A DNA stretch of 64,000 nt from positions 3,844,001 to 3,908,000 of the forward strand of contig NZ_CP009241.1 in the NCBI RefSeq assembly GCF_000758525.1. The letters are read 5' to 3'. This stretch comes from Paenibacillus sp. FSL H7-0357 (GTDB taxonomy: Bacteria > Bacillota > Bacilli > Paenibacillales > Paenibacillaceae). Below are positions 24,514-42,000 of this stretch, piece after piece (positions within the stretch are counted from its first letter, which is position 1; each line of letters starts with the position of its first letter). The translations under genes were made by a program, and so were the position numbers. Under the pieces are notes generated by a model. It had not been told where the DNA came from. It ran no database searches and was given only the letters and a program-made list of their open reading frames with translations.

Positions 24514-24519
24514 AAAAAG

Positions 24520-24560
24520 GAACATCTGTAAGGTCATTAGCCCTACGGATGTTCTTTTTT
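24520..24560 (+). terminator. Intrinsic terminator of the metal-transport operon
   Basis: Eleven pairs 24520-24530/24544-24554 (GAACATCTGTA with TACGGATGTTC, one wobble) followed by TTTTTT. Confidence 0.9.
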
Positions 24561-24653
24561 AGCCTGCATAGTTTTATAATGAGAATAATGCGGATGATCC
24601 GTTGTTATTGTATTATTCGATTCAAATACCAGCCAAAAATTATATGAATAAGG

Positions 24654-24682
24654 TTTACAATCCTAACATATCAAACTATGAT
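24654..24682 (+). promoter_or_regulatory. Promoter of the bioY operon
   Basis: TTTACA (24654-24659), 17 bp, TATGAT (24677-24682). The -35 is part of GGTTTACAA, which resembles one arm of a BirA operator, but no matching second arm is seen at usual spacing. An imperfect dyad (CTATGATTT at 24676 with AAATCTCATAG at 24703) covers the -10 and start region. BirA control is expected from family knowledge of bioY/yhfUTS operons but is not proven by these sites. Confidence 0.55.
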
Positions 24683-24750
24683 TTAGCTTGAATATAGATG
24701 ACAAATCTCATAGGAATTAATATTTACATCACACTAACGGAGGTCGCAAG

Positions 24751-25293
24751 TTGAAGACAAAAGAGATGGTATTTGCCGCATTATTTGCTGCACTAATAGG
24801 GGTATTAGGTATGATTCCACCGATTCCGCTAGGGTTTATCCCGGTGCCCATTACCGCACAAACACTTGGTGTCATGCTGGCGGGAAGTTTTTTAGGTAAG
24901 AAGACAGGAAGTCTTAGCCTGATTTTATTTATCGTGTTAGTCGCTCTGGGTTTACCTTTATTATCCGGAGGACGTGGAGGTTTCTCTGCATTAGTCGGGC
25001 CGTCAGCCGGTTACATTTTAAGCTGGCCCGTAGCTGCATTTTGTATCGGATATGCGACAGAAAAAGTCTGGTCCAATGTAAAAACATGGAAAGTTATCGT
25101 CATTAACTTAGTTTTTGGTGTGATGCTTGTTAGTTTGATCGGTGCGCCGGTTATGGCTTTGATTACACATACCTCTATTTGGGCCGGACTTGTGGGAGCA
25201 ACCGCATTTTTGCCGGGGGATTGTATTAAAGCGGTCATAGCTGCTATTATAGCGCTACAATTAAAAGCCGTCAGTCCAATCGAAGAGAAGTGA
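24751..25293 (+). CDS. bioY: BioY, biotin-specific S component of an ECF transporter
   Basis: 180 residues, six hydrophobic helices. PITAQTLGVMLAG and LVGPSAGYILSWPVAAF are the BioY signatures, and LPGDCIKAVIAA near the end contains the conserved Asp/Lys of the binding region. TTG start 24751 with GGAGG seven bases upstream. It opens a ten-gene cluster that includes its own ECF energy module (29473-31910). Overlap with the downstream CoA ligase region shows tight coupling. Confidence 0.95.
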   Translation: MKTKEMVFAALFAALIGVLGMIPPIPLGFIPVPITAQTLGVMLAGSFLGKKTGSLSLILFIVLVALGLPLLSGGRGGFSALVGPSAGYILSWPVAAFCIGYATEKVWSNVKTWKVIVINLVFGVMLVSLIGAPVMALITHTSIWAGLVGATAFLPGDCIKAVIAAIIALQLKAVSPIEEK

Positions 25294-25298
25294 TAAAG

Positions 25299-26789
25299 AT
25301 GAATCTGATTGAACCCTTACTGCGTTATGCAGAGCAGCAGCCCGACCATATCGCTTTAACCGATGGCGAAGAGAGCCGTACTTATGGGTCATTGGTACAG
25401 CGTATGACTACAATTGCACAGGGTATACGGCAAAATGGCCTTCACCATGATAAGATTGCCATTTTATCTGCGAACCGCATTGAATTTGTAGAGGTGTTTT
25501 TAGGAGCTATTTATGCCGGGTGTGTTCCCATCCCTTTGGATCCCAAATGGAGTATAAATCAAGTGAACGCTGTTCTACAGCAATGTCAGCCGAAAATGAT
25601 TTTTGCAGAGACCCATTTGGCAAAGATTCTAGACTTACAGGACACGGCAATTCAACTTCTAACTTTTTCTGATCAGGACATGGGTTCAGGTTCTTATGAC
25701 AGCTGGTTGCTCACTCTCAAGCCGGAAGCTGAAATGGATGAATCGAATGAATTATTGTTTATCGGCTTTACTTCAGGCACAACAGGAACACCTAAGGGGT
25801 ATATGCGCACCCACTTGTCGTGGATTCAGAGCTTCGAGGCGACCAAAGAGGCTTTCCTGCTAAACCGCATAGAGCATATGTTAGCTCCAGGCCCCTTTGT
25901 TCATTCCTTGTCTTTATTCGCGGTAATGCAGAGCCTATACAGCGGTGCAACCTTTCATATCGTAAAAGAGTTCGATGCCGGCAAGGTTCTACAGTTGTGT
26001 AAACAGAATCCCGATGTTATTTTGTTCGTCGTGCCGACGATGATTGAAGCACTGCTCCAGCAGAAGGATAAATTTGGTCAGACACAAATCCAGGCATTAA
26101 TCAGCTCAGGCGGGAAATGGTCAGAGAGGTCTAAGAATAGGTGCAGGGAGATATTCGGCGCAGCGAAGCTATATGAATTTTATGGCTCATCTGAAGCTAG
26201 TTATATCAGTTACCTGGATGTTCATGCCGACAACAAGCCGGATTCAGTAGGCAAACCCTTTTCTGGTGTACAGATATCAATTCGTGATGAGCATCTTCAG
26301 GAGGTAACCCCAGGGGGCATCGGGCAGCTTTATATTCGGAGTGATATGATGTTTACCGGGTATTATCATTTGCCGGAAGAGACTTCAGCGGTTTTTCGTG
26401 ACGGATGGCTGATCATCGGAGACTTTATGTATATGGATCAGGATGGATATTTGTATTTGGCTGGCCGCTCAAAAAACATGATGGTTTCCGGTGGCCTTAA
26501 TGTTTTCCCGGAAGAAGTAGAGTCTGTGCTGCAGCAGATGCCGGAAATTCAAGAAGTGATGGTACTGGGAGTACAGGATGCCTATTGGGGTGAACAGGTG
26601 ACAGCACTTGTGAAGTGGAGCGGACAAACGCGTTTATCTGTAGAACAAATCAAGGATTACTGCTGCCGGCAAATTGCGAACTACAAGGCCCCAAAACAGC
26701 TCATCACGGTAGAGCAGTTCATTTATACAAGTAGCGGAAAAATTGCCCGGCAGGCAATGAAAGACTACGCGAAAAGATGGATGATATGA
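25299..26789 (+). CDS. Acyl-CoA synthetase (ANL superfamily, YhfT-like)
   Basis: 496 residues. The P-loop-like motif FTSGTTGTPKGYM binds ATP; YEFYGSSEASYISYLD is the A5 motif; GWLIIGDFMYMDQDGYLYLAGRSKNMMVSGG spans the hinge; the C-terminal catalytic lysine is in TSSGKIAR. It should activate a carboxylic acid to its CoA thioester. In B. subtilis the gene order yhfU(bioY)-yhfT-yhfS is the same as here and belongs to the BirA regulon. ATG 25299 preferred to GTG 25290, which overlaps the bioY stop. Substrate unknown; a short dicarboxylate is proposed from context. Confidence 0.85.
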   Translation: MNLIEPLLRYAEQQPDHIALTDGEESRTYGSLVQRMTTIAQGIRQNGLHHDKIAILSANRIEFVEVFLGAIYAGCVPIPLDPKWSINQVNAVLQQCQPKMIFAETHLAKILDLQDTAIQLLTFSDQDMGSGSYDSWLLTLKPEAEMDESNELLFIGFTSGTTGTPKGYMRTHLSWIQSFEATKEAFLLNRIEHMLAPGPFVHSLSLFAVMQSLYSGATFHIVKEFDAGKVLQLCKQNPDVILFVVPTMIEALLQQKDKFGQTQIQALISSGGKWSERSKNRCREIFGAAKLYEFYGSSEASYISYLDVHADNKPDSVGKPFSGVQISIRDEHLQEVTPGGIGQLYIRSDMMFTGYYHLPEETSAVFRDGWLIIGDFMYMDQDGYLYLAGRSKNMMVSGGLNVFPEEVESVLQQMPEIQEVMVLGVQDAYWGEQVTALVKWSGQTRLSVEQIKDYCCRQIANYKAPKQLITVEQFIYTSSGKIARQAMKDYAKRWMI

Positions 26790-27937
26790 TAGAGGCTGTA
26801 ATTGTGATCGCTAAACGGACACCCATTGGCAGGATCGGCGGAGTATTAAGTGCTCTTGAGCCGGAAGCATTATTAGCACCGCTTATTCAGCATATTGTCG
26901 CAGAAACGAATGTGCCGAAGGAATTAATTGATGATGTCATCATTGGCAATGTAGTAGGTCCAGGCGGCAACATCGCACGGCTTTCTGCTCTGGAAGCAGG
27001 ACTGCCAGTGACGGTCCCGGGTGTCACGGTTGACCGGCAGTGTGGTTCTGGTCTGGAGGCAGTCAATCTTGCGGCAAGGCTGATTCAAAGTGGTGCTGGT
27101 GAGATTTATTTGGCTGGTGGAGTTGAGAGTACGAGCCGTGCCCCATGGAAAATGGCCAAACCGCAATCGCTAACGGGTGCACCGCAGCTATATACACGGG
27201 CCCGTTTCACTCCAAGCGCCTACGGCGACCCGGATATGGGCATTGCAGCCGAGAATGTCGCCCGTAAATATGCGATTTCCCGGGAAGAACAGGACCGTTA
27301 TGCTTTGAAAAGCCATCAAAAAGCCATTCATTCGCAGCAAACCGGCCGATTTCTGCAAGAGATCGTTCCTGTACAAGCGAATGGCGGATGGGTTACCCTA
27401 GATGAATGCCCCAGAGCCAATACTAGCCTGGAAAAGCTGCAGCAGCTGCCGCCAATCTTTCTGGAACAGGGTACGGTAACGGCTGGCAATGCATGTCCTC
27501 TGAATGATGGAGCGGCTCTGGTTCTGATGATGTCCCGTGAGAAATGCCGGGAGCTTCAACTAAAGCCTATTTTGCGTGTCGTCGATGCCCAAGCGGCAGG
27601 TGTTGATCCCAATTATTTAGGTATGGGGCCTGTTCCAGCTGTTCAAAAGGTGCTTAACCGCCAGCACCTGAGTGTTGCCGATTTGGATATCGTGGAGTTT
27701 AACGAAGCTTTTGCCTCACAAGTATTAGCCTCACTACAGGAGCTTCAGATTCCGCAGGAAAAGGTGAATCGTGGAGGCGGAGCACTGGCCATTGGCCATC
27801 CTTACGGTGCTTCCGGCAGCATCTTGATCACACGGTTATGCACGGAGATGTTATATAAACCTTATAAACGAGGGCTGGCCACACTAGGCATTGGTGGCGG
27901 GATAGGTCTGGCCACGCTGGTGGAGGCGGTCCAATGA
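26786..27937 (+). CDS. Thiolase (acetyl-CoA C-acyltransferase, YhfS-like) with altered second catalytic cysteine
   Basis: 383 residues. Nucleophile Cys86 lies in VDRQCGSGLEA; NEAFA and GHPYGASGS supply the other active-site parts. The C-terminal motif that normally reads CxGGGxG is GIGGGIG here: the cysteine that deprotonates acetyl-CoA in classical thiolases is glycine. The reaction is therefore uncertain: condensation could be weakened, altered in substrate or replaced by thiolysis-only or decarboxylative chemistry. Start ATG 26786 overlaps the ligase stop (ATGA); ATG 26777 is an alternative. Places a carbon-carbon bond forming or breaking step in the bioY operon. Confidence 0.87.
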   Translation: MIEAVIVIAKRTPIGRIGGVLSALEPEALLAPLIQHIVAETNVPKELIDDVIIGNVVGPGGNIARLSALEAGLPVTVPGVTVDRQCGSGLEAVNLAARLIQSGAGEIYLAGGVESTSRAPWKMAKPQSLTGAPQLYTRARFTPSAYGDPDMGIAAENVARKYAISREEQDRYALKSHQKAIHSQQTGRFLQEIVPVQANGGWVTLDECPRANTSLEKLQQLPPIFLEQGTVTAGNACPLNDGAALVLMMSREKCRELQLKPILRVVDAQAAGVDPNYLGMGPVPAVQKVLNRQHLSVADLDIVEFNEAFASQVLASLQELQIPQEKVNRGGGALAIGHPYGASGSILITRLCTEMLYKPYKRGLATLGIGGGIGLATLVEAVQ

Positions 27938-28308
27938 ATACAGTCCGGCATCAGGTTCATATCACTGCGGAGTGGATTTCTGACTATGCACAAAGTATCG
28001 GAGCTCCCTTGAAAATGATAAAAGGTGATCTGATCGCACCTGCCACAATGCCGATTATTTTCTGGCAATTTTTCGATATTCCCTGGTTGAAGACGGATGC
28101 CCCCTTAATTCACGGCACGCAGCATTTTACCTACCAGGAACCAATTACCGCAGGGATGATCCTGGATTGTGAATTATCCTTAACGAGGATGGATAAGAAA
28201 GAAGTTAGACAGGAACGGATGACCTTTTATTACCACACGCTTATTTATACCTGTGGCGGTAATCTCATAGGGACGGCAGATACCATATTAATCCGGGCAG
28301 GTGATTAA
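27934..28308 (+). CDS. MaoC N-terminal/FAS1-like dehydratase domain protein
   Basis: 124 residues with a single hot-dog fold. HGTQHFTYQEPITAGMILDCELSL is typical of the noncatalytic N-terminal half of MaoC-type dehydratases (PF13452). The D-x4-H catalytic pair is missing; it is expected to dimerise with the next protein, which has the pair. Overlaps both neighbours by a few bases. Confidence 0.75.
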   Translation: MNTVRHQVHITAEWISDYAQSIGAPLKMIKGDLIAPATMPIIFWQFFDIPWLKTDAPLIHGTQHFTYQEPITAGMILDCELSLTRMDKKEVRQERMTFYYHTLIYTCGGNLIGTADTILIRAGD

Positions 28309-28651
28309 GATTAAGAAACGTATAACTGCCGAGGCTGTCCGGCAATATGGTGCTGTCTCTAAAGATACGGCTGCCATTCATCTGAATGCCGAAGCTGCTG
28401 TTAAGGCTGGCTATAAGCGGCCTATAGCGCATGGTATGTATATCATGGGGCTGGCACAATCGTTATATCTAACCGATCATCCAGCACAGTGGATTACAAC
28501 GTATAGCATGAAATTTCATAAACCGCTTGTAGTAGATACAGATGTGGTGTTTCACTTTGAGCCTAGCGACGGTCATATCGAAGTGAAAGTCACATTAGAA
28601 TCTGGTGATGTGATTGCTTCAGGTACCTTTTCAGTGAAAGAGATGAAGTGA
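28301..28651 (+). CDS. MaoC-type (R)-specific enoyl-CoA hydratase/dehydratase
   Basis: 116 residues. The hydratase-2 motif is SKDTAAIHLNAEAAV followed by RPIAHGM, with Asp and His five residues apart. GTG start 28301 overlaps the preceding gene by 8 bp; its own stop overlaps the next start (TGATG). It would dehydrate a 3-hydroxyacyl-CoA to the trans-2-enoyl-CoA, or the reverse. Confidence 0.82.
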   Translation: MIKIKKRITAEAVRQYGAVSKDTAAIHLNAEAAVKAGYKRPIAHGMYIMGLAQSLYLTDHPAQWITTYSMKFHKPLVVDTDVVFHFEPSDGHIEVKVTLESGDVIASGTFSVKEMK

Positions 28652-29472
28652 TGGATAAAGTAGCCGTAATTACAGGAGCCACCAGAGGGATTGGGCGCAG
28701 CATCGCCTTAAAGCTTGGCCAATCCGGTTATCAAGTGATTGTCAACGGGACAAAGCAGGCGCTAATCGACGAGGTTGTGCAGGAGATTCACCGGACAGGC
28801 GGCGAGGCGCTGGGGATTTGTGCCAATGTCGCAGATCCGCTTGAGGTCACTGCGATGGTGGATGCTGTCATCGCTAAGTATGGCCGTATAGATGTATTGA
28901 TACATAACGCCGGTAATTTGCATGACCAGCAATGTCTGCATATGACGGATGAAGAATGGAATTCGGTGCTGGATGTGCATCTGAATGGAGCTTTTTATAG
29001 CATTCGCCGGGCACTGCCTCATATGCAACATCATGGCGGAGACATTCTTCTGATGACCTCCACTGCCGGATTAACAGGTTCGATTAAGCAGGTGAATTAC
29101 AGTGCGGCCAAAGCTGGAATGCTTGGAATGATGTGGACGCTCGCAGCCGAACTAAAGCGCAACGGTATTAGGGTAAATGCCATTGCGCCTGCTGCCTTAA
29201 CGGATATGACCCGGCCTGTCATCCAGCATATGAAGGAAAAGTACGCCAGCCGCAAAGAGCCGTTCCCGGAGTTCTGGCAGGTGGGGGAAGCAGATGATAT
29301 TGCCCGGTTCGCAGCCGCATTGCTGGAACAGCCGGATATTGAGTTAACAGGTGAAATATTTGGTGTGAATGGTTCGAAGGTAACGAAGTGGCAAAAGCCG
29401 GAGCCTGCTTTTACCGAAACCGGCATAGAGGCATTTTTCAAAACATGGCGGCAACAGAAGGGTAGTCATTAA
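28651..29472 (+). CDS. Short-chain dehydrogenase/reductase, 3-oxoacyl reductase (FabG-like)
   Basis: 273 residues. Nucleotide-binding TGATRGIGRS, NAGN, catalytic Ser in TSTAG and YSAAK with Tyr and Lys intact. A C-terminal extension of about 25 residues goes beyond typical FabG. It is the natural ketoreductase between the thiolase and the MaoC pair. ATG 28651 chosen over GTG 28648 because of the TGATG coupling. Confidence 0.87.
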   Translation: MDKVAVITGATRGIGRSIALKLGQSGYQVIVNGTKQALIDEVVQEIHRTGGEALGICANVADPLEVTAMVDAVIAKYGRIDVLIHNAGNLHDQQCLHMTDEEWNSVLDVHLNGAFYSIRRALPHMQHHGGDILLMTSTAGLTGSIKQVNYSAAKAGMLGMMWTLAAELKRNGIRVNAIAPAALTDMTRPVIQHMKEKYASRKEPFPEFWQVGEADDIARFAAALLEQPDIELTGEIFGVNGSKVTKWQKPEPAFTETGIEAFFKTWRQQKGSH

Positions 29473-30273
29473 ATGCTGACATTCGATCACGTTCATTTTT
29501 ATTATAAAAAAGGGCAGCCCGTCATAGAGGATTTAAGCTTTACGATTGAGACGGGGGAGTTCGTGGCAATTGTCGGGGCGAATGGCTGCGGCAAGTCTAC
29601 AATTGCCAAGCTAATGGATGGATTGCTGCTTCCAAAACAAGGGGATGTAACCTTTCAGGATCTAAACACCTCCAGACCCGCAGACCTTAGGATGATCCAT
29701 GAGCAGATAGGGTTTGTATTCCAGAATCCGGAGGACCAATTCATTACTACAACGGTGATGGATGAAGTGATCTTTGGATTGGAAAACATTCGTGTGCCAA
29801 GGGAAGAAATACGCTGCCGGTTGGATCAAGCCCTACAGGCTGTGCAAATGGAGAATTATTTGGAGTCGATGCCCCATCAGCTCTCAGGCGGTCAAAAGCA
29901 ACGGGTAGCTATTGCCGCCATCCTGGCTATGCAGCCCCGGATTATTATTTTTGACGAAGCTACTTCCATGCTTGATCCGCAGGGGAGGGAGCAAGTGCTT
30001 TCGATCATGCAGGAGCTGCACCGCCAAGGCATGACCATTATCCACATCACCCATCATATGGAGGAAGTGCTGGCTGCGGGGCGTATTTTACTCATGGATA
30101 AGGGGCGTCTTGTATTTGATGGAGATCCGGTTTCTTTTTTTGAAACGGTGCCCGTTGAAGACTACCAATTAGAACTTCCTTTTGCGGTTCGAGTATATCG
30201 AATGCTGCATCCGGACATGCCGCTAACGGTAGATTGGAAGGAGATGATCCGCTCACAATGGTCTACCATCTAA
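29473..30273 (+). CDS. ecfA1: ECF transporter ATPase EcfA1
   Basis: 266 residues: Walker A GANGCGKST, Q-loop FVFQNPEDQFITTTV, signature LSGGQKQRVAIA, Walker B IIIFDEATSMLD, switch ITHHMEE. The FQNPEDQ pattern is characteristic of ECF ATPases. Begins right after the SDR stop codon (TAAATG). Together with EcfA2 and EcfT it forms the energy module for BioY; such modules can also serve other S components. Confidence 0.9.
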   Translation: MLTFDHVHFYYKKGQPVIEDLSFTIETGEFVAIVGANGCGKSTIAKLMDGLLLPKQGDVTFQDLNTSRPADLRMIHEQIGFVFQNPEDQFITTTVMDEVIFGLENIRVPREEIRCRLDQALQAVQMENYLESMPHQLSGGQKQRVAIAAILAMQPRIIIFDEATSMLDPQGREQVLSIMQELHRQGMTIIHITHHMEEVLAAGRILLMDKGRLVFDGDPVSFFETVPVEDYQLELPFAVRVYRMLHPDMPLTVDWKEMIRSQWSTI

Positions 30274-31106
30274 ACAATCTAAGCGTGAGTTATGCCGATC
30301 GGGCAGCTCTGCAAAATGTCAGCTGCACGATTCAAGAAGGCAAGTGGATCTCTGTCATTGGCCATACAGGCGCCGGCAAGTCTACATTTGTCAAAGTGCT
30401 GAAGGGGCTGATTCCGGACATTGCCGGAGAGTATTTGATTAATGATCATCCCATTCCCAAGGACCGTAAAGGACAACTAAAAGCCCTACCTGATATAGGC
30501 TACGTATTTCAATATCCCGAGCATCAATTATTTGAATCGACGGTGTACAAGGAGCTTGCCTTTGCTCCTAAGCTGCGTGGGGATACGCCTCAGCAGATAA
30601 AGAAGTCGATAGAAATCATTCTTTCGCAAGTAGGTCTGACAGAAGATATCCTGCCATTGGTTCCGTTTCAGCTAAGCGGGGGGCAAAAGCGCCGTGTAGC
30701 TATCGCTTCCGTATTGATGATGGATCCGAAGCTGCTTATTCTGGATGAACCTACAGCAGGTCTCGATCCAGTAAGCCATGCCGCATTGCTTCAGCTGCTG
30801 AGTAAATGGCAGCAGCAAGGTAATCGCACCGTTATATTCGTATCCCATCAAATGAACGATGTTGCCGAATACTCGGATGAAGTCATGGTATTTCACGAGG
30901 GGCAACTCATGGGGCATTATGAGACCGGCACTTTATTTCTGGAACAAGCGGAATTGCTGGAGAAACTGGGTTTATCCCTTCCGGAACCTGTACAAATGTT
31001 AAAGGTAGTTGAGGAAATGTCCGGTGAGATAATTGAAGTGGCGAGCTGCAGAGAGCAGGATATATTCGCAAAAGTGCTGCCCATCTGGCAGGCAAGGAGA
31101 CTCTAA
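30258..31106 (+). CDS. ecfA2: ECF transporter ATPase EcfA2
   Basis: 282 residues: Walker A GHTGAGKST, FQYPEHQLFESTVYKEL (EcfA2-type), signature LSGGQKRRVAIA, Walker B LLILDEPTAGLD. The start is taken at ATG 30258, overlapping ecfA1 by 16 bp; an in-frame TTG at 30234 would add eight residues. Stop codon directly abuts ecfT. Confidence 0.88.
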   Translation: MVYHLNNLSVSYADRAALQNVSCTIQEGKWISVIGHTGAGKSTFVKVLKGLIPDIAGEYLINDHPIPKDRKGQLKALPDIGYVFQYPEHQLFESTVYKELAFAPKLRGDTPQQIKKSIEIILSQVGLTEDILPLVPFQLSGGQKRRVAIASVLMMDPKLLILDEPTAGLDPVSHAALLQLLSKWQQQGNRTVIFVSHQMNDVAEYSDEVMVFHEGQLMGHYETGTLFLEQAELLEKLGLSLPEPVQMLKVVEEMSGEIIEVASCREQDIFAKVLPIWQARRL

Positions 31107-31910
31107 ATGTCTAATACCCTGTTAATGGGACAATATTTGGAGACGCACTCCATATTTCACCGTCTGGACCCGCGGACAAAGCTTGTGAGCATGATTATTA
31201 TCATGCTGAGCTTCCTAATGCTGGACACGTTCGTCAGCTACGTTGTCGCAACCCTTTTTTTGGTTGGCATTATGTGGTTATCCAAAATCCCGTTACAGGT
31301 CTTTTGGAGAGGCATGAAGCCGGTCTTGTTTATTTTGATGTTTACTTTTCTCTATAATGCCTTATCCACGAAGGGGAATATCATTTGGTCCTGGTCCGTT
31401 ATAGAGGTGACAGAAGAGGGACTGCTGAACGGGTTACGTTTCGTTTGGCGTATTGTCTTAATCATCTTGCTGGCTTCTATTTTAACGTTAACTACAAAAC
31501 CGCTGACCTTAACCCATGGGCTGGAGAAATTACTGGCCCCTTTATCCAAACTCAATGTGCCGGTGGAGCAGTTTTCACTAATGATTGTGATTGCGATCCG
31601 GTTTATCCCAACGATTATGCAAGAGCTTGATCGGATTCTCCTGGCCCAGAAGGCCAGAGATTATGATATTACCACCTTAAAGCTGCCAAAACGTATATTT
31701 GCCTATATTCCGATTCTCGTGCCTTTGCTTCTAACGGTGATTCAACGTGCCGAACAACTGACTCATGCCATTGATGCGCGTGCTTATGGGAATGGGAAAG
31801 GGAGAACTTCCTATAAGCAATTGACATTCCAGCGTGTCGATTATCAAGCAGGCGGAGCAGTTATACTAATGACCGTGATCCTGCTGCTGTTGAAAATTTG
31901 GGGATTTTAA
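31107..31910 (+). CDS. ecfT: ECF transporter transmembrane protein EcfT
   Basis: 267 residues with several membrane helices. The two Ala-Arg coupling motifs that contact the ATPases are visible as AQKARDYD and AIDARAYG. N-terminal LDPRTKLV is the family opening. Begins at the base after ecfA2. Confidence 0.9.
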   Translation: MSNTLLMGQYLETHSIFHRLDPRTKLVSMIIIMLSFLMLDTFVSYVVATLFLVGIMWLSKIPLQVFWRGMKPVLFILMFTFLYNALSTKGNIIWSWSVIEVTEEGLLNGLRFVWRIVLIILLASILTLTTKPLTLTHGLEKLLAPLSKLNVPVEQFSLMIVIAIRFIPTIMQELDRILLAQKARDYDITTLKLPKRIFAYIPILVPLLLTVIQRAEQLTHAIDARAYGNGKGRTSYKQLTFQRVDYQAGGAVILMTVILLLLKIWGF

Positions 31911-31929
31911 GTGGATAGAAGGAGAGATA

Positions 31930-32892
31930 ATGATGAAATGGGCTACACGGGTAACTGAATTATTACAAATTAAATATCCTATTATTCAAGGGGGACTTGC
32001 CTATTTAGCCTATGCAGATCTTGCGGCTGCGGTTTCAAATGCAGGGGGATTAGGCCAAATTACCGCTATGAGTCTCCCGGATGCAGATGCCTTGCGCTCG
32101 GAAATTGAGCGTGCGCGCACCCTGACGAACCAGCCCTTTGGTGTCAATTTTGCTATTGGCAACCATAATATTAACTATAGGGATCGGGTCCAGACTGCTA
32201 TTGATGAGAAGGTCCACGCTGTGACGATCACTGGTGGAGATCCTACGGCGATATTAGAGATGATGCAACCCACGGCAATAAAAACACTGGTGCTCGTTTC
32301 CTCACGAAGACAAGCTCAAAAAGCGGAACAGCTGGGCGCATCGGCGGTGATTGTTGTCGGGCAGGAAGGCGGCGGGCACTTAGGGCGTGATGATGTTGGA
32401 ACGCTGGTGCTTGTCCCGCAAGTGGTTGATGCTGTTCAAATTCCCGTCGTTGCTTCAGGTGGAATTGGGGATGGCCGGGGCTGGATGGCTGCCCATGCCC
32501 TTGGTGCTGAAGGTATTGAAATGGGGACACGCTTTATCGCCACTCAGGAATGTGTGGACGCCTCCGCCTCTTACAAAAAAGCCTTGATTGAGAGTTCGGA
32601 GGCAGATACAACAGTGATCAAACGTTCTATCCATTCACCGGCCAGGGTATTGCGAAGTGCCTACACGGAGAAAATTCTCGAAATCGAGCGCGTAACCCCC
32701 ACCTATGAAGCATTAAAAGAATATATTAGCGGTGAAGCCAACAAACGCTGGATTTATGAGGATTGTGAAGAAGAGGGGTTCGGTTGGGCAGGTCAAGTGA
32801 CCGGCATGATCCATGATATCCCAACCGTCGCCGAATTGATCAATAGAATGGTCCAAGAGGCGGAGAAGGTTCGCGGAAAATGGGGAAGCTAG
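31930..32892 (+). CDS. FMN-dependent enoyl reductase/nitronate monooxygenase family protein (FabK-like)
   Basis: 320 residues, TIM-barrel flavoprotein. IIQGGLAYLAYADLAAAVSNAGGLG at the start (residues about 17-41), GQEGGGHLGR and VVASGGIGDGRG are the FMN-binding motifs shared by FabK and nitronate monooxygenases. In this operon an enoyl-thioester reductase role would complete a condense-reduce-dehydrate-reduce cycle; nitronate oxidation is the alternative that sequence alone cannot exclude. GAAGGAGAG precedes the start. Its 3' end overlaps the convergent epoxide hydrolase gene by 4 bp. Confidence 0.82.
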   Translation: MMKWATRVTELLQIKYPIIQGGLAYLAYADLAAAVSNAGGLGQITAMSLPDADALRSEIERARTLTNQPFGVNFAIGNHNINYRDRVQTAIDEKVHAVTITGGDPTAILEMMQPTAIKTLVLVSSRRQAQKAEQLGASAVIVVGQEGGGHLGRDDVGTLVLVPQVVDAVQIPVVASGGIGDGRGWMAAHALGAEGIEMGTRFIATQECVDASASYKKALIESSEADTTVIKRSIHSPARVLRSAYTEKILEIERVTPTYEALKEYISGEANKRWIYEDCEEEGFGWAGQVTGMIHDIPTVAELINRMVQEAEKVRGKWGS

Positions 32893-34073
32893 CGTCCACG
32901 GAAAGTCCGGCGCAAGTCCTCGGTCCATTTGTCCGGGATTTCCCAGGGGATAAAATGTCCACCTTCTGCATGGGCTGTGATATTGACATGGTTATACCAG
33001 GGAGCGCGATCGCTGTCCAGGAAGTTCTGTACGCGGTTTTCGGTTGTGATCCCTGGCGGATTTTCGTAGCCCACGAAGCTAATACCGGTTGGTGCCTCAA
33101 TGACAGGCCAGCGATCATGAGCGGGTGTCCACGGATAGCGGTTGGCGTTGGCGTAGACGCGTATTGAGGTTTCGATGGCGTTGTTAACCCAGTAGATTGT
33201 TGCGTGTGTAAGGATGTCGTCCTTGGAAAAAACATTCTCAACGTTGCCTTTATTATCACTCCATCTTGCCCAGCGTTCCAAGATCCAAGCGAGCATGCCT
33301 GCGGGCGAATCGCTTAGTCCAAAGGCGAGGGTGGCTGGGTCAAGGACATGTACGGCGAGATGCGATGCGAAACGGCGATCCAGATTTAGAATCCCCTTCC
33401 GGATGTCTTCAGGGATATTGCCGGGTATAGGACGGCCTCCTGCGAAATCCCAAGCGCGCTCCCCGTTGAAGAAGTTAAGTTTCAGCGCTGACCCAATGTG
33501 TATCGCATAGAGCTCATCTGGATATTTATGTCCCAGTTGACCTGTCACGAGAGCGCCTACATCACATCCTCCTGCAGCGTATTTAGTATAGCCGAGGATA
33601 TCTGTCATGAGTGTATGCCAGAGATCAGCAATTTTCCAAAAGTTCATATCCGGGTTGTCCGGCAGTGGCGTCGAAAATCCGAAACCGGGAAGTGAGGGGA
33701 CGATTACGTCAAAAGCTTCGGCTGGATCGCCTCCGAAGGCGCCAGGATCCGCAAGCTGATCAATGACCTTGGACCAGTGCCAGAATGTCCAGGGCCAGCC
33801 ATGAGACAAAATTAAGGGTGTAGGGTCTGGTCCTACGCCTGGTTTACGCATAAAGTGCACAGAAACTCCCTCAATGTCTACTTTATAATGTTCATAGACG
33901 TTGATCGCTTTCTCGGCTTTGCGCCAGTCAAACTCGTGAATCCAGTAATCAACGAGTCCCTCAAGATAGTTCCGGTTTACCCCGTAAAACCAGTCATCGT
34001 TACCGGCGTCTAAAGGCCATCTCGTAGACTTCAGACGAGATAGAACGAACTTAATAACTACACAAAAGGGCAA
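32889..34073 (-). CDS. Epoxide hydrolase-family alpha/beta hydrolase with irregular N-terminus
   Basis: About 394 residues. The epoxide-hydrolase N-terminal domain is clear (YGVNRNYLEGLVDYWIHEFDWRKAE), followed by ILSHGWPWTFWHW (oxyanion hole), GCDVGA with nucleophile Asp, and a C-terminal AHAEGGHFIPWE with the catalytic His. The only available start is TTG 34073 without a good ribosome binding site, and the first about 12 residues do not match the usual opening of the family, so the 5' end may be damaged or fused to unrelated DNA. It may be functional from a cryptic start or decaying. No terminator separates it from the convergent bioY operon. Confidence 0.78.
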   Translation of the reverse strand: MPFCVVIKFVLSRLKSTRWPLDAGNDDWFYGVNRNYLEGLVDYWIHEFDWRKAEKAINVYEHYKVDIEGVSVHFMRKPGVGPDPTPLILSHGWPWTFWHWSKVIDQLADPGAFGGDPAEAFDVIVPSLPGFGFSTPLPDNPDMNFWKIADLWHTLMTDILGYTKYAAGGCDVGALVTGQLGHKYPDELYAIHIGSALKLNFFNGERAWDFAGGRPIPGNIPEDIRKGILNLDRRFASHLAVHVLDPATLAFGLSDSPAGMLAWILERWARWSDNKGNVENVFSKDDILTHATIYWVNNAIETSIRVYANANRYPWTPAHDRWPVIEAPTGISFVGYENPPGITTENRVQNFLDSDRAPWYNHVNITAHAEGGHFIPWEIPDKWTEDLRRTFRGR

Positions 34074-35920: not shown

Positions 35921-35977
35921 CTTTAACTAGACTTTAACATACGTTGGTAAGATGGACTTGGATGCAAACGATTGCAG
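35921..35977 (+). promoter_or_regulatory. Regulatory region of the amylase gene: direct repeat and cre site
   Basis: CTTTAAC at 35921 and 35932 repeats with an 11-bp step. ATGCAAACGATTGCAG (35962-35977) fits the CcpA cre consensus with two mismatches and contains the 14-bp palindrome-like TGCAAACGATTGCA. A -10-like TAAGAT lies at 35948. Arrangement suggests activation by a phased-repeat regulator and catabolite repression by CcpA. Confidence 0.6.
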
Positions 35978-36074
35978 TCCGCAAAAAACCAGCTTTTTAG
36001 CAGTATATACCTTGCTGGTTTACGGATCACATACTCGTTTTCATACCAAAGGGTACAGGAGGAGAAAAAAGCTA

Positions 36075-39000
36075 ATGGTGAAAAAGAGTTGCAAAGTATT
36101 TCTAAGCATGATGCTGCTCTGCTCAATGCTGTGGAGCGTTGCAGTATTGCCAGCGGGCCAAGCAACAGCGGCCACAGTGACCCCGACAGCACCGTCCACA
36201 GCAGCGTCTGCAACAACCAGCAACGCGCCGGTTAATAACACGATGATGCAGTTTTTCGAATGGAATACACCTAAGGATGGTGGACATTGGAACCATCTTG
36301 CTGCCGAAGCAGCTAATCTGAGCGATGTGGGGATCACGGCAATCTGGATACCCCCTGCTTATAAAGGCCATGTGGGAACCGACGATGTTGGTTATGGCGT
36401 TTACGATTTCTACGATCTGGGTGAATTCAACCAGAAAGGAACCGTACGTACCAAATATGGTACAAAAGCTGAACTGAAATCGGCGATCAGCTCGCTTCAC
36501 AACAACAATGTTCAAGTCTACGGCGATATCGTTGTCAACCATATGTTGGGCGGCGATCAAAGCGAGAACATTAAAGTGACACAAGTACAGGGCAACAACC
36601 GCAACCAGACGATTGGCGAGTTTAATACAAACGTTTGGACAAAATACAATTTTGATGGCCGCAACAATGCCTATTCCAATTTCAAATGGAATTGGACGCA
36701 TTTTGACGGTTCAGGTGACTACGATAAAATTTACCGCTTTCCAGACAAAGCATGGGATTGGGAAGTTAGCACCGAGAACGGTAACTATGACTACCTGATG
36801 GGTACCGACATTGACTATGACAACACTGCAGTTGCAGATGAAATAAAAAAATGGGGCGTATGGTATGTCAACGAAATGGGTCTGGATGGTTACAGACTAG
36901 ATGCTGTTAAACATATCAAATACGGCTTCATGAAGGAGTTTGTAGAAAATGCCCGTGCCAAAACAGGTAAAGAGTTGTTCACTGTCGGTGAATTTATCGG
37001 TGGTACAGCTGAATTGAATTCCTACCTGGGCAAAGTGAATCAAAGCATGTCCTTATTTGATTTCCCGCTCCGCAACAACTTTGCGACAGCTTCCAGTTCC
37101 AACGGAGGTTATAGCATGCGCAACCTGGCCAGCGGAACATTGACGGGAACAAATTCGGATAAATCCGTTACTTTCATTGAAAATCATGATACGCAGCCTG
37201 ACCGTTCAGATGCTCATGGCGCACAGGTTCTTGATTGGTTTAAACCGCTTGCTTATGCGTACACTCTGACACGACAGGAAGGTTATCCTTCAGTATTCTA
37301 TGGTGACTACTATGGAACCAGAAGCAGCAACACTGCTGGTCCTGGAACAGGAAAAATTAAATCGCTGAAGAGCAAGCTTGATCCGCTTCTGAAAGCACGC
37401 AAGGATTACGCTTACGGTAAACAAAACGACTATCTTGATAGTGATGACATGATCGGCTGGACTCGTGAAGGTTTGGCTTCCAAACCAAACTCCGGATTGG
37501 CAACGGTCATGACAGACCGTGCCGGCGGATCGAAAACGATGTATGTGGGAACAAGCCACGCCGGTGAACAATGGAAAGATATCACAGGCAACTTCTCTGA
37601 TAAAGTAACTATCGGCTCCAGCGGTAATGGTACATTCAAGGTTAAAGAGGGTTCTGTATCGGTATGGGTACCAGATGTGGCAACTCCAACCGATCAAGCC
37701 CCTACAGTACCAACAAATGTACAAGGAACAGCAGTAGGCACTACATCTGTAAATCTGAGTTGGACAGCTTCTACTGACGACAAGGGAGTTGCTAAATACG
37801 AGGTTTATCGTGACAGCGCTCTCATTGGTGAATCCACCAGCACTACTTACAACGATTCAACAGTAGCAGCCAACAAGACCTACGCCTATACGGTTAAGTC
37901 TGTAGATACAATCGGACAGAAATCAGGCTTCAGCGTTGAGGCTACTGTTACCGTCGGCGGCGGAGGAACGCAAGATCAGCTTCCAACTGCGCCAACGAAT
38001 GTGAAGGGAACAGCAATAGGCACAACATCTGTCAACCTGACATGGAGTCCTTCCACGGATGACAAGGATGTTGTGAAATATGAGATTTACCGTGACGGTA
38101 CGCTAAAAGGCGAAGCCACGGGAACAGCATATTCAGACAACACTATAGTGAATGACAAAACGTATTCCTACACAGTCAAGGCTGTAGATACAATCGGACA
38201 GAATTCAGCATATAGTGTTCCTGCTGTCGTGAAAATCGGCAACGGTGGACAGCAGCAGCAAGAAGCAAGCTTATTCAGTTGGGATAATGCAAACGTTTAC
38301 TTCGTCATGACAGACCGTTTCAATAACGGTAATACCAGCAATGACGGCGCTTATGGCAGACCTAAGACTGATGCTTGGGGCTCGAATGTGGGTACATTCC
38401 ACGGTGGAGATATTAAAGGTTTGACCAAGAAGCTGGAAGAAGGCTACTTCACAGATTTGGGTACAAATGCAATATGGATCTCGGCTCCGTGGGAACAAAT
38501 GCACGGCTGGGTAGGCGGTAAAGACGGTGACTTTGCTCACTATGGCTACCATGGCTATTATGCACTTGATTTCACTGCGATGGACAAGAGTATGGGCACC
38601 ATTGATGAAATGCGCGAGTTCGTTGACCTCGCTCATACCAAAGGAATTCGTGTTGTCCTTGACGTGGTTATGAACCATGTCGCTTATCCGACACTTGTGG
38701 ATATGGCGGAATACGGATACGGTGACCGCGGCGGACTCGCCGGAAACTGGACTCCGGATAAAGGCCAAGGCCAGAACTGGCACACGCACAACAACATTAT
38801 GAACACAAATAATTCCAGTGCATGGGCTTCCTGGTGGGGCAGCAGTTGGATTCGCGCCAACACTATTGCGGGTTACGATCAATGCGGCAGCAACGATCAG
38901 ACGCTGTGTGTAGGGTTCCTGCCTGATATTAAGACCGAATCCACTAGTGGTACCAGTTTGCCGCCGCTACTGAAGACGAAGTTCAACAAAGAAACAAGCG

Positions 39001-42000
39001 GTTACGACAACTGGATCGTTCCGGCTGCCAAGCAATACCGCAAAGATCTGAATGTCGCCCCTAAGGATTACATGATCAAATGGCTGTCTTCATGGGTCGA
39101 AGAATTCGGAGTTGATGGTTTCCGTATTGATACTGCGAAGCATGTTCAAGCAGACAAATGGAAAGAACTCAAGACAAGCGCAAGTAGTGCGCTTGCGAAA
39201 TGGAGACAGAATAACCCGTCGAAACCGGGAGCAGATTGGACAGATAACTTCTGGATGACAGGGGAAGTTTGGGGTCAAGGCCTTGGAAGAGACAGCACTT
39301 ATTTCGATAACGGGTTTGATTCCTTAATCAACTTTTCTTTCCAAGGTGCGAATATGAGTGACCTGGAAGGCCTTTTCTCCCGATATGCAAGTGAATTAAA
39401 TGGAGATCTGCCTAACTATAATATGCTCAGCTATCTTTCTTCCCACGATAAAGGGTTGTACACCCGTGGAGGCTTGATTCAGGCAGGCACCGCGCTTCTG
39501 CTTCTTCCGGGCGGAGTGCAGACGTACTATGGAGATGAAACGGCAAGACCGTTCGGGGCTACTGGCTCTGACCCGTATCAGGGTACGCGCTCATTCATGA
39601 ACTGGAGCGGCATTAACCAAGGTGTTCTGTCACACTGGCAGAAGATTGGGCAATTCAGAAACAATCACATTGCAGTAGGTGCAGGAACTCATAAGAAAAT
39701 TGCAGACAGCCCGTATACGTTCTCACGCACCTATGAGAAGGATGATGTTCTGGATAAAGTAGTCGTGGCTACAGGAGCTTCCGGAACTGTGGATGTGAAT
39801 GTATCCGGCATCTTCCCGGATGGCACTACGGTACGCGATACTTACACGCAGAACGAAGTGGTTGTAAGCGGAGGCAAGGCCAAATTCACTGCTGGAACCA
39901 ACGGCGTTATTCTGATTGAAAATGTTGGCGTAAACAAAAAGTTCCCGGTTCTGACGGCCTCACCAGCAGGCGGTAAATTCAAAACCGAAACTACCTCTGT
40001 AACGCTTTCGATCAAGAATGCGGACAGCGGCAAGTACACGCTGGATGGCAGTGATCCGGTTAACGGAACTGCATTTACCAATGGAACAACAATCACAATT
40101 GGCGCAGACATGGCCATTAATGACAAGAAAACACTGAAGATGTACGCCACGAATGAAAATGGCGAAGGTACGGCGTCGCACGATTTTACTAAGGGTGATC
40201 CTAACGCCAAGCTGGAAGTTTACCTCAAGAAACCGGCTGGATGGGGAACACCTTCCATTTACTTCTACGACACAGCACCTAAGGACAATGACCCAACCTG
40301 GGCTACAGCTCCAGCTATGACAAGCGCTGGCGGAGACTGGTATGTCTACAGCTTCGACAAAGCTGAACAAGCTACAATTATCTTTAAAGACAGCACAGGT
40401 AAACAAGTGCCTGCTCAGAACCAAGCTGGATTCACCAGAACAGCAACAGGCTGGTATGACGGAAGCGCTTGGTCCGATACAGATCCGCGTGTCGTGACTA
40501 AACCGACGGCTCCATCGAACCTGGCTAGTTCTGTAAAGACAGACAAGACAGTAACATTGACTTGGAATGCGTCCACTGACAGCTCCGGAATTGCCGGATA
40601 CGACGTATACCGTAACAATGTGAAGGTTGGATCGGCTACAGCAGCGACTTATAAGGACACAGGCTTGACTGCAGAAACAACGTATACCTATAAAGTTATT
40701 GCCAGAAGCCAAACCGGCGGAACCTCCGATCCAAGTAACGAGCTCAGCGTTAAGACTAACCCGTCTGAACAAGGCACAGACAACACCGTTACGGTTTACT
40801 ACAAAAAGGGATACGCAACTCCCTACATTCACTACCGCGCTGAAGGTGGCAACTGGACAGCCAGTCCTGGTGTGAAGATGGAGGATTCTGTAATTCCGGG
40901 ATATGCTGTGCACACGATTGACCTGGGAACCTCATTGGCAACACGAGCAGAGGTAGCATTCAACAATGGCAGCGGTCAATGGGACAGCAACAATCAAAAG
41001 AACTATTTCTTCAATATAGGCGACAATACCTATGACACAGGTAAAGTGACCGCTGGTAAACCGGAAGGTCCAAAGCCAGGAAATAAGGTTACCGTCTACT
41101 ACAAAGAGGGCTGGACAAATGTAAACATTCATTATCGCGCCGAGGGTGGTACCTGGACATCCGTTCCAGGTGTGAAGATGGAGAATGATTCGTTGAACCC
41201 TGGCTACAAAAAAATAACTGTTGATATTGGAACCGCTAGCCGTCTGGAAGCTTGTTTCAATAACGGAAGCAATGTTTGGGACACCAACAATCAGAAGAAC
41301 TACTTCTTCAACGCAGGCGACAATATTTACATTCCTGGCAACAATAATGCTGCAGGACAAGTGAAGCTTGGGGAGAAACCGGTGGGAGTAGATACGATTG
41401 CTCCTTCAGTTCCAGCTAACCTGGCTGGCAATCTCAGCAGTGGAACTCCTAAGACGATCACTTTGTCTTGGGGTGCCTCTACTGACAATATTGGCGTAGC
41501 AGATTATCAAATTACCCGTAAGGCTGGTACAAGCACGGAGACATTTACGGTGAATGTAACAACTTTTATCGACAGCACGGTAACGGAAGGTACGACTTAC
41601 AAGTACCAAGTCCGTGCTCGTGATGCTGCAAATAATTTCTCTGCTAACAGCAATGAAGTAATCATTGAAACTTCAGCCGGAACCGATACAGAGGCGCCAA
41701 GCGTTCCAGCCAGTCTTATATCGACCGGTAAGACAACTTCAACGGTGAGTCTGTCCTGGGCAGCTTCAACAGATAATGTGGCTGTAGCAGGTTACGACAT
41801 CTATCGTGGTGCAGTAAAAGCAGGAACATCAACAACACCTGCATTCACGGACACCGGTTTGGCTGAAGAAACATCATATACCTACACTGTAAAAGCTTTC
41901 GATGCTGCAAATAACTTCTCAGCAGCAAGTGCTGAGCTTACAGTGGTCACATTGAAAGGAACGATCGTTATTCCTGGTGGTGACAAGCCCTATTCCACTA

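Follow-up and report, generated by a model that had tools for sequence, protein, structure and literature searches.

A biotin-transport operon of Paenibacillus with an altered thiolase and a possible role in the rescue of shortened biotin vitamers

The operon and its products

The 64,000-nucleotide stretch of Paenibacillus sp. FSL H7-0357 analysed here (contig NZ_CP009241.1, positions 3,844,001 to 3,908,000; hereafter the window) carries an operon that combines genes of a biotin transporter of the energy-coupling factor (ECF) type with genes for enzymes acting on acyl-CoA esters. Ten open reading frames (ORFs) occupy positions 24751-32892 of the plus strand. Their order is the one listed in an earlier note on this DNA, and the spacings between successive genes (-4, -13, -4, -8, -4, 0, -40, 0 and +19 bp) agree with the overlaps or gaps below 20 bp described there. 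The note's gene identities, its view of the genes as a single operon and the assignment to biotin import also hold: the roles of all ten products are backed by Pfam and NCBIfam models, although several of the NCBIfam models are matched short of their curated cut-offs, and the Pfam domains encountered along the operon are BioY, AMP-binding, Thiolase N/C, FAS1_DH_region, MaoC, adh_short, ABC_tran (twice), CbiQ and NMO. The features are listed below, NCBIfam scores being given as score/cut-off.

24652..24660, plus strand: half-site GGTTTACAA, 90 bases ahead of the bioY start, probably what remains of a BirA box on its promoter-proximal side
24654..24682, plus strand: predicted sigma-70-like promoter, TTTACA-17-TATGAT (promoter scan; kept in relatives)
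24751..25293, plus strand: bioY, biotin S-component of the ECF transporter, TTG start (PF02632, 1.2e-36; L. lactis BioY 4dve, 5.8e-36)
25290..26789, plus strand: AMP-forming acyl-CoA ligase, YhfT-like (PF00501; best NCBIfam model NF005797, which we take to be the YhfT model, 450/518)
26777..27937, plus strand: thiolase-fold protein, YhfS-like, with Gly371 at the second catalytic cysteine (Pfam Thiolase N/C; alignments; NF005212, 438/498)
27934..28308, plus strand: hotdog 1, HadA-like, lacking the catalytic Asp/His motif
28301..28651, plus strand: hotdog 2, MaoC/HadB-like (PF01575; alignment; HadB/MaoC chains)
28648..29472, plus strand: FabG-like short-chain reductase (PF00106, 2.8e-51; TIGR01830, 196.6/297.75)
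29473..30273, plus strand: EcfA1 ATPase (TIGR04520, 321.4/315)
30234..31106, plus strand: EcfA2 ATPase (best model TIGR04521, below cut-off at 279.5/330)
31107..31910, plus strand: EcfT transmembrane component (PF02361, 1.2e-37)
31930..32892, plus strand: FabK-like flavin enoyl reductase (PF03060, 4.4e-63; FabK 7l00, 1.5e-64; best NCBIfam model TIGR03151 (FabK), cut-off not reached at 271.7/453.1)

The BioY protein matches both the BioY family and a relative of known structure, and is predicted to bind biotin. It is the sole BioY match in the source genome (G000, 7.69 Mb, 99.98% complete). The two hotdog proteins resemble the mycobacterial HadAB dehydratase in pairing a non-catalytic with a catalytic subunit: by fold, hotdog 1 is closest to HadA, and hotdog 2 has Asp22 and His27, which are presumably catalytic and are invariant in 11/11 aligned sequences. 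However, identity to the mycobacterial system is only about 20%, the curated HadA and HadB cut-offs are missed (20.9/180 and 30.9/203), and hotdog 1 contains an FW...PW stretch that is missing from the aligned HadA chains.

An altered thiolase and its kin

The thiolase-fold protein belongs to the family of biosynthetic and degradative thiolases (PF00108/PF02803) and keeps their classical Cys89, Asn316 and His348 sites, in the form of Cys89 (motif DRQCGSG), Asn309 (NEAF) and His341 (GHP). It differs from them at two positions. The site of the second catalytic cysteine, Cys378, is occupied by Gly371 (motif ATLGIGGG), whereas the three solved thiolases aligned with it (1ulq, 4e1l and 8jg3) have cysteine there; and the Ser247 site is occupied by Cys240, which is invariant in alignments of 8 and of 14 sequences. 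We take Cys89, the asparagine, the histidine and Cys378 to have the active-site roles usual in thiolases. Cys378 deprotonates acetyl-CoA or CoA, and its loss stops thiolysis. Thiolysis is therefore not expected of the operon protein, which argues against a degradative role, and the residue change, as judged from the alignments, also speaks against classical condensation dependent on acetyl-CoA. The earlier note had proposed a cycle in the style of reverse beta-oxidation; its reductive enzyme inventory is present, but condensation by a plain thiolase is doubtful because the second catalytic cysteine has been lost.

This alteration, which annotation hides, is shared by relatives. Glycine stands at the Cys378 site in 51 of the 51 readable thiolases from 53 loci carrying either the operon's enzyme genes (the cassette) or a YhfS-type gene, including two that exceed the cut-off of the YhfS model; in two loci, L124 and L147, the thiolase could not be read, and the 51 amount to 47 distinct ones, since L145, L148, L154 and L155 are from the same genomes as G041, G106, G079 and G133. 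A plasmid survey at E <=1e-85 returned 124 records, from Rhizobium (111), Azospirillum (5), Sinorhizobium (4), Streptantibioticus (2), Shinella (1) and Niallia (1). The three Azospirillum records that were read encode EcfA, EcfT, BioY, the ligase and the thiolase, and tblastn placed EcfA, bioY, ligase and thiolase genes together in Streptantibioticus. In 7/7 kin loci from Azospirillum, Rhizobium and Streptantibioticus, four of which adjoin bioY, glycine at the Cys378 site is combined with cysteine at the Ser247 site. In contrast, among ten other thiolases (nine lower in the ranking and one from a Niallia beta-oxidation locus) all have cysteine at the Cys378 site and none has cysteine at the Ser247 site.

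Gene order and BirA boxes in relatives

Among 148 genomes of the family, hotdog 1 has 11 strong matches, the window included, which are spread over five genera; a further three matches are weak and come from a cousin operon, referred to here as type C. The complete operon order is found in G000, G090, G106 and G029; G013 and G049 have the operon without bioY; and in G041, G083, G133, G079 and G011 bioY and the Ecf genes are absent and the enzyme genes stand alone, namely the ligase (a partial match only in G133), thiolase, hotdogs, reductase and FabK-like gene. In G013 a bioY remnant is visible 5' of the ligase gene (L016, near 7306-7380), and a full bioY stands elsewhere beside a birA whose product bears a helix-turn-helix (HTH) domain. 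A wider scan found 37 loci, the four duplicates among them, in Paenibacillus, Fontibacillus, Cohnella, Psychrobacillus, Alkalihalobacillus and Halalkalibacter. The ligase, thiolase and both hotdogs occur in 37/37, the reductase in 35, bioY and the Ecf genes in 28 each and the FabK-like gene in 26. A search for the gene order in other genomes, as the earlier note had suggested, thus shows it to recur across genomes and genera, and on the evidence of gene arrangement this recurrence is more than chance. Several loci (e.g. L122:13978-14304) have a gene of about 108 codons for a CHY zinc-finger protein between EcfT and the FabK-like gene, identified as PF05495 in a domain scan of one locus; it also follows EcfT in 5 of the 9 displayed loci that have no FabK-like gene.

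The link to biotin is drawn from BirA boxes, whose consensus we take to be the palindrome TTGTWAACC-N14-17-GGTTWACAA. A box matching at 16-18 of 18 positions lies upstream of the operon or cassette in 8 of 12 family loci (G106, G130, G029, G011, G133, G079, G083 and G041), and three order-1 Markov shuffles of 583 kb contained no box scoring 16/18 or higher. In the wider scan, a box scoring 16/18 or more lies no further than 330 bp upstream of the first gene in 29 of the 37 loci. Of five genomes in which the cassette stands alone, four (G041, G079, G083 and G133) match the strict genome-wide pattern only before bioY and before the cassette; in the fifth, G011, both sites are accompanied by one further match inside an ORF. 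That pattern can miss weaker sites, and its reversed control gave 0-3 matches per genome. Cassettes that have moved away from bioY have a box of their own, and the boxes of relatives in general make the biotin link strong, in agreement with the biotin-related role claimed in the earlier note.

The window's own genome departs from this pattern. Measured in the same way as the boxes of relatives, the half-site GGTTTACAA lies at position 91 before bioY, and in 18 of 22 bioY-first loci with a box the proximal half lies at 85-92, a placement also seen in an alignment of 12 upstream regions; the probability of finding it by chance in this intergenic stretch is 0.0044, but its bases are shared with the -35 element. 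The distal half has decayed, so that the best box reaches 13/18. The sole match to the strict pattern in G000, at 1766167, is away from the operon. Ten of 23 BirA proteins were scanned for the HTH: HTH_11 is missing from the single BirA of G000, the HTH is likewise missing from the second BirA of G106, and the other eight have it. Because of the 13/18 box and a BirA without HTH, BirA most likely no longer controls the operon in this genome, and BirA binding at 24640-24715, which the earlier note had put forward for testing, is not expected. BirA control of the window's own operon was accordingly rejected. In G013, G049 and G090 the full-consensus box lies elsewhere, at a birA-bioY pair, and the operon itself has none; partial matches occur at other places too in G013 and G049. 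Five of six examined genomes of the window's genus encode two BirA proteins, one longer and one shorter (L086 to L090, L077, L081 to L084); in G106 the longer one has the HTH and the shorter one does not, and G000 has only a short one, without HTH.

As for the promoter, the scan as a whole did not exceed chance (16 found, 14.5 expected). TTTACA and the -10 core TATnAT are nevertheless invariant in 12/12 aligned upstream regions, these being the window and 11 relatives picked because they have boxes, and a -10-like hexamer follows TTTACA by 16-18 bp in 20 of 22 bioY-first relatives. An Rfam search of the window at the gathering threshold gave 0 matches and thus no known riboswitch.

Several described systems invite comparison. 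Three papers describe bioY-yhfT-yhfS of Bacillus subtilis and yhfS-yhfT of Staphylococcus aureus as BirA-controlled and treat the function of yhfS-yhfT as putative or leave it open (PMC6391492, PMC7235819, PMC11089781). The kinship to bioY-yhfT-yhfS proposed in the earlier note is borne out: bioY is followed by ligase and thiolase in the window and likewise in G272, one of the two genomes above the YhfS-model cut-off, and the changed thiolase residues are the same. The B. subtilis control genome also matches the YhfS model. The window differs in adding EcfA1-EcfA2-EcfT, two hotdogs and the FabG-like and FabK-like genes, in ligase and thiolase scores below the model cut-offs, and in lacking both a BirA box at the operon and an HTH-bearing BirA. 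The operon supplies likely partners for yhfS-yhfT. With bioMNY-type biotin transporters it shares the set of A, T and BioY components, which in the Azospirillum kin run A-T-BioY-ligase-thiolase; unlike them it has split EcfA1 and EcfA2 genes, and enzyme genes stand between bioY and the A-A-T genes.

A further parallel is staphylococcal vraA-vraB-vraC-vraP, which is reported to comprise genes for a ligase, a thiolase, VraC (120 aa) and another small protein, VraC and VraP being given as a likely complex after Wang and Sun 2021 (PMC10620731). The likeness lies in the gene order as described; protein searches aimed at staphylococcal VraC returned no staphylococcal protein. The vraA-vraB-vraC operon may represent the same cassette core. 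In S. aureus these three genes are reported to be enriched for protein-altering mutations during colonisation (PMC11730646).

Biotin synthesis genes and the possible function of the operon

The extended cassette is found mostly where biotin cannot be made. In the window's genome neither BioA nor BioB reaches its cut-off, and nothing matches BioW. BioB is above cut-off in 75 of the 148 family genomes, in 0/11 with hotdog 1 vs 75/137 others (Fisher 0.00028). Since 16/16 genomes of the window's genus are without BioB, the test outside that genus is the fairer one (0/6 vs 75/126, p 0.0055); the genomes are a sample of related species, so both p values overstate independence. None of the 11 family cassette genomes has BioA above cut-off, matches below it being taken as other aminotransferases. 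These family counts leave out three type C genomes (BioB in 2/3) and G130, which has no hotdogs; with them included, BioB occurs in 2 of 15 genomes with this thiolase subfamily. Together with further cassette genomes, and with duplicates counted once and the genomes of L139 and L142 left out of the BioB test, BioB is missing in 36/42 and BioA in 40/42. The BioW search covered 40 genomes, including 28 of the 42 that carry the cassette, and was positive in two, both of them cassette genomes with BioA. In five BioB-positive genomes (G557, G559, G548, G565 and G061), four with the cassette and one with the type C variant, bioA, bioF and bioD were not seen beside bioB when ORF starts were read by eye, which fits vitamer scavenging, for instance the finishing of scavenged dethiobiotin.

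These counts bear directly on the function suggested in the earlier note, synthesis of a pimeloyl (C7 dicarboxyl) precursor of biotin, for example from glutaryl-CoA. An analogy with BioZ is available, and a KAS-like active site would fit; BioZ resembles FabH and joins glutaryl-CoA to malonyl-ACP by condensation (PMC11089781). Without BioB there is no route from pimelate to biotin, so the idea fails for most cassette genomes; it is rejected for the window's genome, which has neither BioA nor BioB above cut-off and no BioW match, and overall we consider it scarcely credible.

The explanation that we place first, and still hold tentatively, is that the operon joins a biotin ECF importer to enzymes that re-elongate shortened biotin vitamers, such as bisnorbiotin, by means of an altered condensing enzyme. 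Bisnor- and tetranorbiotin are known products of the beta-oxidation of biotin. The imported vitamer would first be activated by the CoA ligase as its CoA ester. Cys89 of the YhfS-type enzyme would then be charged, and this enzyme would add a two-carbon unit from malonyl-CoA in a KAS-like manner or, alternatively, from acetyl-CoA with the help of a relocated base such as Cys240. The FabG-like, HadAB-like and FabK-like enzymes would reduce, dehydrate and again reduce the product to a saturated acyl-CoA, ending in biotinyl-CoA. One or two turns would restore biotin from bisnor- or tetranorbiotin, and traces would suffice. This account draws on an enzyme inventory that fits one reductive two-carbon extension, on hosts mostly without BioA and BioB, on the BirA boxes of relatives, on the recurrence of bioY-ligase-thiolase in Azospirillum and Streptantibioticus, and on the Gly/Cys pair in 7/7 kin loci vs 0/10 other thiolases. 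A broader proposal, which is possible but which we would rather doubt than assert, concerns the whole thiolase subfamily in which glycine has replaced Cys378 and the Ser247 site holds cysteine, and whose members adjoin bioY in Bacillota, Pseudomonadota and Actinomycetota: it would provide the condensing step of an undescribed vitamin-repair pathway that restores the side chain of beta-oxidised biotin and leads from bisnor- and tetranorbiotin to biotin. In open-licence literature, searched mainly through titles and the beginnings of abstracts and not for thiolases without Cys378, no recognisable description of the cassette or of vitamer re-elongation was found.

The main competitor, which we hold to be rather unlikely, is an elongation that spares biotin: under biotin shortage, with acetyl-CoA carboxylase failing, activated fatty acids would be extended by the cassette from acetyl-CoA, with no need of malonyl-CoA. 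The BirA boxes, which imply expression at low biotin, the complete reductive set and the prevalence of the cassette in genomes without BioB would all suit it. However, the condensing enzyme has lost the cysteine that deprotonates acetyl-CoA in classical thiolases; the bypass fails if the enzyme depends on malonyl-CoA; and neither tight linkage to bioY nor a dedicated ECF module would be needed.

A number of observations weigh against vitamer re-elongation. What the sequences show is the operon, its kin, the boxes of relatives, the lack of a box and of an HTH-bearing BirA here and the changed active-site residues; that a biotin vitamer is the substrate is inferred, as are the direction and the activity of the enzymes. 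We know of no biotin vitamer elongase for comparison, and the operon has no thioesterase gene to free biotin. BioB is present in 6 and BioA in 2 of the 31 further cassette genomes, and two of the six, from Alkalihalobacillus and Halalkalibacter, have BioA and BioW as well. The window's genome itself has no BirA box at the operon, and in the wider scan 8 of the 37 loci score 11-14; four of these, from Psychrobacillus, have a variant box in the same position. Enzymes of the proposed cycle are also missing in places: the Alkalihalobacillus and Halalkalibacter loci have neither ketoreductase nor enoyl reductase, both hotdogs and the enoyl reductase are absent from G130, where bioY, the ligase, the thiolase, the reductase and EcfA1-A2-T are all that is present, and the YhfS-type locus of G272 consists of bioY, ligase and thiolase.

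Another alternative is that the ligase and the thiolase without Cys378 form a two-step acyltransferase that traps biotin or a vitamer, or hands it over, from CoA, the other enzymes being later additions. The two genes are the constant core in G272, Azospirillum and Streptantibioticus, and Cys89, the histidine and the asparagine are kept where Cys378 is lost. Yet a 3-ketoacyl product is implied by the ketoreductase in 35/37 loci and the enoyl reductase in 26/37, and no acceptor is known; we judge acyl transfer to be decidedly unlikely.

The type C variant, in which the FabK-like gene is missing and an acyl-CoA dehydrogenase is encoded, is a further point against re-elongation. In G086 (L060, 1441-15625; also L059 of G061 and L061 of G103) the order is bioY, EcfA1, EcfA2, EcfT, adenine-deaminase-like amidohydrolase, ligase, thiolase, reductase, EryCIII-like glycosyltransferase, MFS protein, family 2 glycosyltransferase and the dehydrogenase, and the opposite strand encodes a fused HadA-HadB-like protein. 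The box scan found no BirA box. The dehydrogenase and the amidohydrolase would suit breakdown or detoxification of biotin or its antimetabolites by beta-oxidation. Types A and B, however, carry the FabK-like reductase instead, the G086 dehydrogenase is nearest to the acryloyl-CoA reductase model, though far below its cut-off, and thiolysis is not expected. Moreover, repression of the genes by BirA with biotin would act in the wrong direction, and BioA and BioB, the targets of the known biotin antimetabolites, are absent from most hosts. Breakdown is thus improbable.

Finally, the three Rhizobium records that were read encode a thioesterase, a ligase and the thiolase away from bioY, again unfavourably for vitamer rescue, and would fit an unrelated acyl-CoA pathway that adjoins bioY by chance. 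With bioY linkage in three phyla and boxes before cassettes that have left bioY, chance adjacency is very improbable. These Rhizobium clusters with the changed thiolase lie on large plasmids (L175:7059-10173, L174 and L178). If the rescue of shortened vitamers is confirmed, the food range of biotin auxotrophs would be wider than assumed, and biotin availability in communities would have been misread.

Around the operon, a convergent ORF on the minus strand (32889-34073) overlaps its 3' end. Upstream, after genes of a peptide-type ABC transporter, an inverted repeat with a T run at 24515-24560 looks by eye like a terminator and is absent from the list of the scan that gave the promoter. Further downstream, a very large ORF of 2301 aa (35952-42857) has, by eye, the look of a secreted multi-domain amylase or pullulanase.

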